Positions 649-6,310 of a DNA stretch of 64,000 nucleotides are shown one piece after another; the stretch's first letter is position 1, and every line of letters begins with the position of its first letter. Under the pieces are notes generated by a model. It worked only from the letters and a program-made list of their open reading frames with translations. It made no database searches and had not been told where the DNA came from. The position numbers were made by a program, and so were the translations under genes. This DNA is from Verrucomicrobiota bacterium (GTDB lineage Bacteria > Verrucomicrobiota > Verrucomicrobiia > Opitutales > UBA953): assembly GCA_016871415.1 (NCBI GenBank), contig VHDL01000010.1, forward strand, positions 1-64,000, in the 5' to 3' direction.

Positions 649-1881
649 ATGAGATTCCTCACCCTCATCGCCGCCCTCGTCCTGGGCGCATCCGTCCGTG
701 CCGCCGACGCGCCCGGACTCGTCAACGGCCACCCGGCCGACATCAAGACCCTGGCCATCGGTGATACCGCGCCGGAGTTCGAGCTGATCGGCACCGACGG
801 CAAGATGCACAAGCTCGATGAATACAAGGGCGGCGAGGCCCTCGTCGTCCTCTTCACCTCCAACCACTGCCCGACCTCCCACAGCATCGAGCGCCGCCTC
901 CAGCGCTTCTGGGAGGCCTACCAGCAGAAGGGCGTCAAGCTCGTCGCCATCAACCCCAACCACCCGGACGGCCTCTCCAAGGACGAGCTCGGCTACGGCG
1001 AGTTCGGCGACTCCTACGAGGAGATGAAGCCCTACGCCCTGAAGAACAAGTGGACCTTCGACTACCTGTATGACGGCGACAAGCAGCTCACCGCCCGCGC
1101 CTACGGCTGCCTTGCGACCCCTCACGTCTTCATCTTCGACAAGAATCTCAAGCTCCGCTACCAGGGCCGCTTCGACGACTCCCGCTTCTACGACGACAGC
1201 ACCGTCAAGTCACCTGATGCCCAGAACGCCGTCGACGCCATCCTGGCCGGCAAGCCCGTGCCCGTCGAGCTGACCCGCCCTATGGGCTGCTCCACCAAGT
1301 GGCGCGAGAAGAAGCCCCTGCACGACGCCAAGCACGCCGAGTGGGCCGCCATCCCCGTCAAGGCCGAGACCATCGACGCCAAGGGCCTCGCCGCCCTGCG
1401 CAAGAACCCCACCAACAAGTACCGCATGGTCAACGTCTGGGCCACCTGGTGCGGCCCGTGCGTCAAGGAGTTCCCCGACATCGTCGAGCTCACCCGGAAG
1501 TTCGGCATGCGCGACTTCGAGCTGATCACCCTCAGCATGGACGACCCCAAGGACCTCCCGAAGGTCGAGGCCTTCCTGGGCAAGAACTCCGCCGGCACCG
1601 CGCCCAAGATCCAGAACGGCCTGAAGAACGAGGGCCGCACCACCAACCATTACGTCTTCACCGGCAGCGCCGATGAACTCGCCGCCTCCCTCGACAAGGA
1701 CATGCCGGGTCCCATCCCGCACACCGTCGTCATCGCTCCCGGAGGCGAGATCGTCTACCGCCACACCGGCATCATCGACCGCGAGCAGGCCGCGTCCGCC
1801 ATCCTCGACCGGATGAACCGCTTCTACTCGCCGGGCACCGCCACCGCGGCCGCTCCCAAGAAGGCCGCGAAGAAGAAGTGA
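649..1881 (+). CDS. secreted protein with two thioredoxin-fold domains
   Basis: A 410-residue protein with a Sec signal peptide (residues 1-19, ending VRA-ADA). The first domain, about 38-190, is redoxin/AhpC-TSA-like with a single Cys in NHCPTSH (Cys74). The second, about 235-385, is a TlpA/ResA-like thioredoxin with WCGPC (Trp267, Cys268, Cys271). It is probably a periplasmic thiol oxidoreductase or peroxidase; the substrate is unknown. The C-terminus is a Lys-rich tail (PKKAAKKK). A strong hairpin with a T run follows the stop. A TTGGAA-16-GATTCT promoter candidate lies at 603-630. Confidence 0.85.
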   Translation: MRFLTLIAALVLGASVRAADAPGLVNGHPADIKTLAIGDTAPEFELIGTDGKMHKLDEYKGGEALVVLFTSNHCPTSHSIERRLQRFWEAYQQKGVKLVAINPNHPDGLSKDELGYGEFGDSYEEMKPYALKNKWTFDYLYDGDKQLTARAYGCLATPHVFIFDKNLKLRYQGRFDDSRFYDDSTVKSPDAQNAVDAILAGKPVPVELTRPMGCSTKWREKKPLHDAKHAEWAAIPVKAETIDAKGLAALRKNPTNKYRMVNVWATWCGPCVKEFPDIVELTRKFGMRDFELITLSMDDPKDLPKVEAFLGKNSAGTAPKIQNGLKNEGRTTNHYVFTGSADELAASLDKDMPGPIPHTVVIAPGGEIVYRHTGIIDREQAASAILDRMNRFYSPGTATAAAPKKAAKKK

Positions 1882-1900
1882 CCGGCCTCTGCGCCTGAAC

Positions 1901-1932
1901 AAAAGGCCCCGGCGTCATGCCGGGGCCTTTTT
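1901..1932. terminator. rho-independent terminator
   Basis: The inverted repeat AGGCCCCGGC / GCCGGGGCCT with loop GTCAT is flanked by AAAA on the left and TTTTT on the right. It can therefore stop transcription of both the rightward redoxin gene (ends 1881) and the leftward protease gene (ends 1939). Confidence 0.9.
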
Positions 1933-1938
1933 CGTGGG

Positions 1939-2628
1939 TCACTTGCGGGGGCCGACCTTCATCCGGCCGCCCTTCAGATCGAGCCACGTGCTCCTTCCGG
2001 GCATCCAGGAGGGCCCGAAGATCGCGTCGAACCCGAAGACCCCGACGCTCATCTTCATGACCGCGGGCGCGAGTCCGAAGATGTCCTCGACCTTTTCCTC
2101 GCCGAGGGTAAAGGGCAGCTTCCATGCGTCCGTGGGCTCGAGGTCGCCCATGATGGGGTGGAAGTCCTTGAACGTCGCGGTCCGGAAACTTTCGACGCCG
2201 AACTTCGCGTCCATCACGTAGCCATACTGGGCTCCCGTGTCGAAGATGGCCTTCGCGCCGTGGCCGTTGAGCCTGATGTTGACGACGGGCATGCCCATGG
2301 TGCTCGTGTCGATTTCGAACGAGCCTTCGGCAGGCGTCGCCACCCCGAGTTCCATCCGGCCAGCGATTAGGTCGAAGCGCATCGCCTCTTCCGACAGCAG
2401 GTCCAGTCCAACCAGAGCGTCGACCTGGGCGCCGATGTTCGCGGACAGGGTGTCGAAGTCGAAGCCCAGGTAGCCGCCCTTGCGGACCTCATGGGATGAA
2501 CCGCCCCAGCTCAGCCTGCCGGTGCGGCTGGCCGTGAAGGGAGCCCCCGTGTCGATGAGCGTCCGCCCCTCGGCGGTGTCGGCGAACAGGTGCTTGCGGA
2601 GGATGTAGAGAGGAAGAGAGGAGGCCAT
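1939..2628 (-). CDS. retropepsin-like aspartic protease with two DTGA lobes
   Basis: A 229-residue protein with two copies of the aspartic-protease core. Lobe one has IDTGAPFTA (Asp26) and, about 70 residues later, ALVGLDLL. Lobe two has FDTGAQYGY (Asp130) and AIFGPSW. Each copy pairs the catalytic Asp-Thr-Gly with the hydrophobic-Gly strand of the retropepsin fold. Bacterial members usually have one lobe per chain and dimerise; here both seem joined, as in pepsins. There is no signal peptide, so it is probably cytoplasmic unless anchored otherwise. The start is the ATG at 2628. An in-frame GTG at 2643 is an alternative. TTGACA (2669-2664) upstream is a likely -35. It is transcribed separately from the Gfo/Idh gene, with a terminator between them. 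Confidence 0.75.
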   Translation of the reverse strand: MASSLPLYILRKHLFADTAEGRTLIDTGAPFTASRTGRLSWGGSSHEVRKGGYLGFDFDTLSANIGAQVDALVGLDLLSEEAMRFDLIAGRMELGVATPAEGSFEIDTSTMGMPVVNIRLNGHGAKAIFDTGAQYGYVMDAKFGVESFRTATFKDFHPIMGDLEPTDAWKLPFTLGEEKVEDIFGLAPAVMKMSVGVFGFDAIFGPSWMPGRSTWLDLKGGRMKVGPRK

Positions 2629-2688
2629 AGATGTGAACTTCACGCTGTAAGCATACAGGCTACTGTCAACTCTGTTCTTCCCATCAAC

Positions 2689-2715
2689 AAAAAGCCCCGG
2701 TTTCCCGGGGCTTTT
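2689..2715 (-). terminator. rho-independent terminator
   Basis: The hairpin AAAAGCCCCGG-TTT-CCCGGGGCTTTT ends the leftward Gfo/Idh operon, whose last stop is at 2735. On the minus strand the stem is followed by TTTTTG, a usable U tract. Confidence 0.9.
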
Positions 2716-2734
2716 GACCTTCATTTGAGGGTTT

Positions 2735-3898
<1,164 letters not shown>

Positions 3899-3937
3899 GT
3901 TGGTGCGGGGATGGTTCGGGGGGATGAGGGATGCGGC

Positions 3938-4942
3938 TCAGAGCGCCCTCTTCACCTTCACCATCGCGGAGAGGATGGTGTTCCAGGTCTTCGGGTTCTC
4001 GAGGGTCGCGTTGGGGAACATGCAGCCGTCCCAGCAGAGGTGCTTCATGCCGCGATCGGCGGCGCCTTCGAGCCAGACCTTGGAGCAGGCGGCGATGTCG
4101 AGCTTGCCGTTGGGATCGTCGGCCTGGCAGTGACGTCCGGTCTTCTCGTGGGAGCCGGTGCCGTGCACCGTGCCGTCGTTCTGGGCCACGTGGAAGTCGA
4201 TCGTCCAGGGGCGGAGCTTGCCGACCATTTCGCGGTAGGCGGGCCAGAACTGCTCCTGCGTGTAGCCTTCCTTCAGCAGGGCGGCTTCGGGCTCATTGTA
4301 GCCCATCAGGTAGAGGTAGGTGTGGGCGAGGTCGGCCTGGAAGCCGAACGTCTTGGGCATCCCGACACCTTCGAGCGTGTCGAGGATGGCCTTCCAGGAG
4401 TGCATGCCGGCCCAGCAGATCTCGCCTTCGGCGGCGAGACGCTCGCCGTGGTCGGCGGCGATCTTCGCGGCCTTCTTGAACGTGTCGACGATGCGGGCCG
4501 TGTTGGCCTTGGGGTTCTCGCGCCACTTCTGCACGCCGAACTCGGCGGAATCCACGCGGATGATGCCGTACTTGCGCACGCCGTGCTTGTTGAGGAGCTT
4601 GGCGATGCGGCAGGCCTTCTCGATGGCCAGGAGGAACTTCTGCTGCTGCTCGTCGGTGCCCATGGCGGAGTCGCCGACCGTGCCGCCCCAGACGGGGGCC
4701 ACGAGCGAGCCCACGTTGAGGCCCTTGGACGCGATGAGGTCCGCCATCTTCTTCAGACCGTCCTCGGAGATGTCCGGGTCGGTGTGGGGATGGAACAGGA
4801 AGAGGTCGACGCCGTCGAACTTCTGGCCGTCGACGGAGGCGTTGACCGTGAGCTCGAGCATGCGTTCGAGGGCGATCGGGGGGTGGTCGGTGTTGGGCTC
4901 CTTGCCGACGAGGCCGGGCCACATCGCGTTGTGCAGTTTCAT
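3938..4942 (-). CDS. sugar phosphate isomerase/epimerase-like TIM barrel
   Basis: A 334-residue protein of the AP-endonuclease-2 / xylose-isomerase-like barrel family. Features are alternating beta-alpha units, [14 protein letters not shown] near residue 41, an acidic GEICWAG segment around residue 205, [13 protein letters not shown] near residue 233, and [11 protein letters not shown] near residue 283. The Glu, Asp and His residues in these segments are those expected to bind the divalent metal. Such enzymes isomerise or epimerise keto/aldo sugars. It sits between the cupin and Gfo/Idh genes, all leftward and 37-39 bases apart, so the three probably act on one sugar derivative. Confidence 0.82.
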
Positions 4943-4979
4943 GGTGTGGGGTGCTGGGGTTGAGAGGGGGAGGGCGGGC

Positions 4980-6251
4980 TCACTTCTTGCGCGCCTTCTT
5001 GTGGGCTCCGACCGCGGGGGCGTCGGGGTTCACTTCGGGGCCGAAGTAGCGGAGGCAGACGAGCGGCTCGGTGGTCGAGGTGTTGCGGAACGTCACGCCG
5101 GCCTTGGCGCCGTCCTCGGTGCAGAAGTACTCGTCCTCGGTGAGCTCGTTGAAGCGGATCAGCTTGGGGCTGTTGAGCACCTCGCCGTTGATCGTGCCGG
5201 AGCCCTGGACGCAGATCAGTCCGTAGGCGCCCTTGTCCTTGATGGTGCACTCGGAGCCGGGCTCGAGGGTGAGCTCCTTGGCGGTGAAGTACTGGAACTT
5301 GTCGATCTTGCCGTAGACGATCCACTTGTCGACCCAGCCCTTGCCCTTGGCGGCCGCGACGGGTTCGAGGTAGTGGTTGTCCTTGAAGTTCGGGTCGACG
5401 TTCTTCTCCCAGTGCAGCTGGTCGACGATGAAGTCCACGTCCTTGTGCTTGGACTTGGGCATGTCCTTCACCAGCAGCGACCACGGCACTTCGCGTCCTT
5501 CGACGAGGTTCTGGTACATGCCGAAGACGTCGGAGCCCCACTGCGGCTCGTAGGTGCAGAGCGAGCCCGGGGCGTGGAGCACGCAGGGGTCGATCAGCCA
5601 GCCCGTGCCGGGCTCGAGCTTGTAGGCCTTGGAGAGCGCGAGGATCTTGTTGTCACCCTTGTGCCAGTTGGCGATGCACTCGCGGACCTGGGCCTTGGTG
5701 GTGCCGGGCTCGAAGCCCATGAAGGTGTAGGGGAAGTTGTTGCCGACGTTGTTGTGCTGGGGCGGGAAGTAGTAGGACTCCGGCTTGCCCTCCTGGCCCA
5801 CGAGCTTCGCCTGCTTGGCGTCCTGGTGCATGTGGTGCGGGATGGGACCCATGTTGTCGAAGAACTTGGAGTAGACGGGCCACTTCTTGTACTTCTTCCA
5901 GATCTTGGAGCCGATGAGCGCGGCGCCGCACTCCTTGACGGCCTGCTTCAGGGTGAAGCGGGTGCCGCCGATGACGACGTAGCTCAGGCCTTCGTCCGGC
6001 GTGCGGTTCTCGTTGGCGGCTTCGGTCGTGGAGGCGAACCAGCGCTCGTCGATGCCGCCGCGGCTCAGGCCGAAGGCGTAAAGGTCATCCGGATGCAGCT
6101 TGAGGCGCTTGCCGGGCTGCAGGAAGGAGCGCGGCACCCAGCAGGGGGCGAGGCGGAGCAGGCCGCCCGTGCGGACGAGCTCCTTGGCGACCAGTTTGGA
6201 CACGCCGGTCTTCTTGGTGTTGAGGTCCTGGACGATCTTGGGGGAGGGCAT
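4980..6251 (-). CDS. cupin-type protein, mannose-6-phosphate isomerase-like
   Basis: A 423-residue protein with two cupin-like halves. The first carries [10 protein letters not shown] (around residue 135) and later LHAPGSLC, which look like the His-rich metal site of type I isomerases. The second, about 310-410, has [20 protein letters not shown] and GTINGE, a typical cupin barrel. It ends in a basic HKKARKK tail. A sugar isomerase or a sugar-binding role is inferred, not shown. The ATG at 6251 gives the N-terminus PSPKIVQDL; an upstream in-frame ATG at 6293 is possible and would put the start about 11 bases from the predicted transcription start. It is the first gene of the operon with the isomerase and Gfo/Idh genes. 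Confidence 0.65.
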
Positions 6252-6310
6252 GGGTGGAAAAAGGGTGGGGCGGCGTCGGACCAGCCGAGCCATCCTGAAT
6301 GGGGACCCGA

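Follow-up and report, generated by a model that had tools for sequence, protein, structure and literature searches.

The window analysed here, a stretch of 64,000 nucleotides, contains on its reverse strand a gene for a two-lobed aspartic protease-like protein of 229 amino acids (1939..2628; stop codon at 1939-1941, coding sequence at 1942-2628). Translation, orthologues and dN/dS agree that this is a real gene, and it is conserved in one genus of freshwater Opitutae. Its product is probably an aspartic peptidase of clan AA that is cytoplasmic and has both lobes in a single chain, as a pseudo-dimer in which Asp26 and Asp130 would share one active site.

The gene, its motifs and its conservation

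Lobe 1 covers about residues 1-98 (2335..2628, reverse strand) and lobe 2 about residues 105-229 (1942..2316, reverse strand). These limits are based on the AlphaFold2 model and on the lobe profiles, of which A1 matches lobe 1 of a paralogue, here called C, over its full length and A2 matches lobe 2 of the same paralogue. The catalytic motif of lobe 1 is DTGA, Asp26-Ala29 (2542..2553, reverse strand), identified from the translation and the orthologue alignment. It is followed by a hydrophobic-hydrophobic-Gly element, LVG at residues 72-74 (2407..2415, reverse strand) within VDALVGLDLL, read from the sequence; this is where the match to Ddi1 falls. The translation and the orthologue alignment also give the lobe 2 motif, DTGA within DTGAQ, Asp130-Ala133 (2230..2241, reverse strand), which coincides with a weak PF13650/RVP match. 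Its hydrophobic-hydrophobic-Gly element, again from the sequence, is IFG at residues 203-205 (2014..2022, reverse strand) within FDAIFGPSW. Two hydrophobic residues followed by DTG[AST] did not occur twice in any of 20,000 shuffles of the protein, and occurred at least once in 108 of the 20,000. Lobe 1 also has a near-invariant Gly-rich sequence, GGYxGFxF (window 2455-2478), at the expected position of the flap, which we take to resemble the Gly-rich flap of HIV protease. By eye, no signal peptide is seen at the N-terminus, where the conserved part begins at the first Met, and the location of the protein is therefore probably cytoplasmic.

Orthologues were sought in 95 genomes, 55 from the same genus (G000-G054) and 40 from outside it. 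All 30 full-length copies, including that of the window, are within the 55 genomes of the genus, two more of which (G016 and G029) have fragments. The 40 other genomes contain one weak local match, which is probably a paralogue. Across 273 genomes of the order, a profile search gave 13 in the genus, including G016 in broken pieces, and a single partial match outside it. The 29 named relatives come mainly from freshwater Opitutae or Verrucomicrobiota assemblies, the term 'freshwater' being taken from isolate names; four bear other titles (one Akkermansia, one Polynucleobacter and two Opitutus). Copies broken by a stop or frameshifts are found at G016:C11:386-1094 and L066:6001-6714 and represent either assembly error or gene decay.

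Asp26 and Asp130 are retained in all 30 full-length orthologues. The lobe 1 DTGA is intact in 29, the exception being DIGA in L019, and the lobe 2 DTGAQ is intact in all 30. The Asp and Gly of both DTG motifs are invariant among relatives down to about 41% identity, as are Gly74 and Gly205 in the same alignment. The sequence-only reading had proposed a DTGA and hydrophobic-Gly core in both halves of the protein, with Asp26 and Asp130, and this is borne out by the translation and by the 30 orthologues. Comparison with the two nearest relatives gives a dN/dS of 0.17 (L039) and 0.36 (L040), and the locus is under purifying selection.

Gene order is also conserved among the 29 named loci. A gene on the convergent side, presumably thioredoxin-like, is present in 28, and an upstream gene, presumably a Gfo/Idh-type oxidoreductase, in 26; the exceptions have a contig end near by. 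In five loci (L048, L061, L062, L063 and L064) the thioredoxin-like neighbour is about 1.4 kb from the protease match, compared with about 0.1 kb elsewhere, as if an extra gene had been inserted. Between the convergent protease and thioredoxin-like genes there is a strong hairpin at 1896..1936 (-26.9 kcal/mol, z -5.6 by folding), probably a two-way terminator. A second hairpin, with a U run, is found on the reverse strand between the upstream oxidoreductase gene and the protease gene (2678..2722; -21.4 kcal/mol, z -3.4 by folding) and suggests that the protease gene is its own transcription unit. A simple promoter and terminator scan at the locus found neither feature, despite the strong hairpins found by folding. 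An operon with the neighbouring genes was considered and rejected, because the second hairpin parts the oxidoreductase gene from the protease gene and the other neighbour is convergent.

Identity to L039 is 87% for the protease and 97% for the syntenic neighbours (window 649-1881 and 2735-6293), with dS of 0.47 and 0.14-0.23, respectively. Against L041 the protease is 45% identical, whereas the three upstream neighbours are 90-94% identical and the thioredoxin-like gene 76%. Both dS and dN of the protease are raised, a hint that alleles may have been replaced or that codon usage constrains the neighbours. There is no support for a viral or plasmid origin of the gene, since none of eight pattern matches in viral contigs was confirmed as a relative and the plasmids searched contained none.

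Family assignment and duplication of the lobes

Current Pfam and NCBIfam models miss this family. The Pfam matches are sub-threshold and confined to lobe 2: PF13650 (Asp_protease_2; 17.5 bits against a curated cut-off of 24.3), RVP (PF00077; 16.7 bits against 20.7), gag-asp_proteas and Asp_protease. Up to E = 1 these four are the only Pfam families matched, pepsin not being among them, and NCBIfam gives no match. When solved structures were searched with the single protein only Ddi1 was returned (E 0.23-0.4); with the family profile Ddi1 was matched at E 0.0014. The same Ddi1 domain is matched twice, by lobe 2 at DTGAQ and by lobe 1 at the (I/L)GLD-L element, which points directly to a retropepsin/Ddi1-like nature of both lobes.

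The sequence features of clan AA are present, with D[ST]G preceded by hydrophobic residues twice and a downstream hydrophobic-hydrophobic-Gly in each lobe. Retropepsins of family A2 have one lobe per chain and act as homodimers; here two motif-bearing lobes are in one chain. The pepsins of family A1 share the two lobes in one chain, but not a Pfam sequence match with this protein. A 2024 paper on the fold, in its excerpted text, divides it into four SCOP families, the pepsin-like one alone being two-lobed in a single chain (PMC11313796). The protein fits cleanly into none of the four.

The similarity between the two halves is real but weak. Local profile comparison of lobe 1 with lobe 2 places the DTGA motifs in register (E 0.0011-0.0019, probability 14-20%); global alignment of the profiles found nothing, and only the local alignment brought the motifs together. 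In a pairwise test the observed score is equalled or exceeded in 48 of 2000 shuffles, the best stretch being the hydrophobic-Gly part with 9 of 26 residues identical. The same test is less marked in four orthologues, for which 29 to 65 of 500 shuffles reach the scores. The similarity of the halves in a profile comparison, which had been named beforehand as a check on the two-lobed reading, is thus present in the register of the motifs, but at a low probability.

Comparison with paralogue C bears on the age of the duplication. The family lobe 1 profile matches lobe 1 of paralogue C at 98.4% over 93 columns, and the lobe 2 profiles match at 97.6% over 124 columns, whereas lobe 1 against lobe 2 inside either family gives 14.5% and 12%. 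Since the lobes match their counterparts far better than they match each other, the duplication is, on these profiles, older than the split of the two families. It is also plausible that it was independent of the duplication in pepsin, as no pepsin is found among the solved structures that match the protein plausibly, if weakly, in sequence, namely Ddi1, retroviral proteases and 9iy9. Profile matches to other bacterial two-lobed families and to pepsin are weak and mixed.

Two-lobed proteins of this type are not rare in the phylum. A search of 145 Verrucomicrobiota genomes with PF13650 found a match in 64, and 21 open frames in 19 of the 145 have two tandem matches. The contrast drawn by the sequence-only reading with bacterial relatives that have a single copy therefore fails in Verrucomicrobiota. 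Nine of the best 20 PF13650 loci have two DTG/DSG motifs in the trimmed frames, the trimming having cut a few others among the 20. The tandem proteins resemble the window protein in having two lobes per open frame with DTG or DSG in each; they differ in that most have one or both lobes above the Pfam cut-off and many look secreted, and neither is true of the window protein. Four same-order proteins (L079, L081, L084 and L087) are likewise two-lobed and protease-like, with DTG in lobe 1, DSG in lobe 2 and, by eye, a PDZ-like tail.

The genome of the window has two paralogues. Paralogue B (contig C14) is matched by PF13650 twice in tandem, with one match scoring over the cut-off, and its start resembles a signal peptide. 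Searches of solved structures with paralogue B and with a protein that we guess to be of Akkermansia type returned no useful solved relative for either. Paralogue C (contig C44) is cut by the contig end. The lobe 2 Asp of paralogue C has been lost, SSG or ASG replacing DTG, in L145 (G000:C44), L146 (G005:C29) and L147 (G035:C42). These three genomes, which also carry the window's family, are probably close relatives, and the loss may have been one event; eight other members of C keep DTG in both lobes.

Predicted structure and mode of action

The AlphaFold2 model, built from 28 sequences, has a pLDDT of 68.4 and a pTM of 0.63. Averaged over blocks of ten residues, pLDDT is 71-87 between residues 11 and 80 and 69-90 between residues 121 and 200; the linker (82-111) and the tail (209-229) are poorly modelled (pLDDT <50). 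The top Foldseek matches are 9iy9 (E 1e-5) and tethered or covalent-dimer HIV-1 proteases, the latter over both lobes (E 2.8e-5 to 6e-4). In a second structural comparison 9iy9 has a Z of 10.0 (202 residues, 4.2 Å, 13% identity), its superposition spanning model residues 1-226 and chain residues 158-437. Tethered HIV-1 proteases follow with Z 9.0-9.4 (146-160 residues, 3.3-3.8 Å, from model residue 5/6 to 215/217), and then a xylanase inhibitor and pepsin-type chains with Z 8.1-8.7, rhizopuspepsin and beta-secretase being at about 8.1; a Z of about 9 barely exceeds the range reached by unrelated models, and the rank among 9iy9, the HIV proteases and the pepsin-type chains is not firm. A second model, led by an orthologue of the main clade, has a pLDDT of 68.3 and a pTM of 0.65, and its confidence is low in lobe 1. 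The structures that match it best (4ehc, foamy virus protease and APRc) do so mainly over lobe 2, and 9iy9 is absent among the 50 matches listed for it.

Superposed on a tethered dimer over both lobes, the model would place Asp26 and Asp130 at the positions of Asp25 and Asp25' of HIV protease. The earlier suggestion that an active site could form within one chain gains from this superposition of the predicted monomer on tethered HIV dimers, but the model, at pLDDT 68, is a middling one.

The two retropepsin-like lobes, of about 100-125 residues, would pack together like an artificially tethered HIV protease dimer, with the catalytic water held by Asp26 and Asp130 and one active site per chain. 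The protein would act as a monomer, expressed from its own unit with hairpins on both sides, and would have peptidase activity. Ala after DTG has been tied to neutral pH in renin, HIV protease and bacterial pepsin homologues (PMC2761423, in excerpt); since both DTG motifs are followed by this residue, as is the case in retropepsins, peptides would be cleaved near neutral pH. Narrow regulatory cleavage of the cell's own proteins seems more likely than bulk degradation. The middling model, the low confidence of lobe 1 in the second model, the weak similarity of the halves, the pepsin-type Z scores close behind, the DIGA of L019 and the broken copies in G016 and L066 all count against this reading, as does PE_PGRS16, a bacterial two-lobed protein of the same fold described without demonstrated activity in the excerpted source (PMC6819658).

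Conservation of both Asp residues in every full-length orthologue, and of the Asp and Gly of DTG among more distant relatives, is as expected for an active site. It makes it unlikely that the protein is a pseudo-peptidase, having the two-lobed clan AA fold without cleavage and a binding or inhibitor-like role. Some pepsin-family proteins are non-cleaving and do have such roles. A non-peptidase of the same fold, the wheat xylanase inhibitor, is among the structural matches here, paralogue C of the same lineage has lost its lobe 2 Asp, and the protease gene changes faster than its neighbours, all of which would suit a pseudo-peptidase.

The pairing of each lobe with its counterpart in a second chain, with active sites between chains, is very improbable, given that the prediction for the single chain is a pseudo-dimer that superposes on tethered dimers over both lobes. 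This arrangement would accord with the weak similarity of the lobes within the chain and with single-lobed bacterial proteins, as RloA is a dimer by SEC-MALS and in crystals (PMC12239564, in excerpt) and APRc was cross-linked as a dimer, though on a sizing column it ran mostly as a monomer (PMC4140852, in excerpt). Least probable of all is a shortened true member of pepsin family A1, which the two lobes per chain and the matches to rhizopuspepsin and beta-secretase would allow, but which is opposed by the lack of a Pfam pepsin match up to E = 1, by plausible, if weak, solved-structure sequence matches to Ddi1, retroviral proteases and 9iy9 instead, and by a chain about 100 residues shorter than pepsins.

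The single-chain peptidase may be taken one step further, to a natural counterpart of tethered HIV protease: a minimal cytoplasmic bacterial enzyme of about 230 residues, its retropepsin-type lobes fused independently of the pepsin fusion, with a partner paralogue in the same genomes that lacks one catalytic Asp. This fuller picture is possible but tentative.

Comparison with known systems

The best structural match of the model over both lobes in one chain, 9iy9, is a putative endopeptidase/exported protein of Bacteroides fragilis. It is likened to the window protein by superposition of the fold, and differs in being an exported protein of greater length (420 residues), in which a long stretch precedes the match. 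A literature search for the code 9iy9 found nothing on the protein. The tethered HIV-1 protease dimers (3kt5, 1lv1 and 1hvc) combine two retropepsin lobes, each of about 100 residues, in a chain of about 200 and also superpose over both lobes. However, they are engineered copies of one lobe, whereas the lobes of the window protein have diverged and lobe 2 is longer. The retroviral-protease-like domain of Ddi1 is the closest by sequence profile, with DTGAQ corresponding to lobe 2 and (L/I)GLD-L to lobe 1, but it is eukaryotic, with one lobe per chain, and a homodimer. RloA/RimB and APRc are bacterial and have DTG, APRc also having the hydrophobic-hydrophobic-Gly; they differ in having one lobe per chain, RloA being a dimer and APRc thought to act as one.

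Pepsin is thought to derive from a duplicated half-sized retropepsin-like ancestor. A small, clearly retropepsin-type two-lobed family, from a bacterial phylum that also has single-lobed relatives and further two-lobed ones, offers material on how often such fusions occur and on whether they preceded, or stood apart from, pepsin.

Two-lobed single-chain bacterial aspartic proteases are already in print. PecA/PE_PGRS16 of mycobacteria (Rv0977, PDB 4ehc) has a single-chain aspartic protease domain with DTG and DSG, and 4ehc matches both models structurally. PecA requires its Asp for processing, according to the excerpted source (PMC6819658). It differs in that it is a PE_PGRS protein exposed at the surface, and its protease domain is longer. 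The bacterial pepsin homologues of family A1, the shewasins, are described in excerpt as two-lobed and intracellular without a signal peptide, like the window protein (PMC2761423), but belong to family A1 by sequence, where the window protein has no Pfam match. Literature searches on this family and on two-lobed bacterial retropepsin-like proteins found no description of the family among the papers listed. What had first been observed in the sequence is right, and the two-lobed architecture is probably right, but not the rarity: the window protein represents a well-conserved new family, with a two-lobed layout that is itself known in bacteria.
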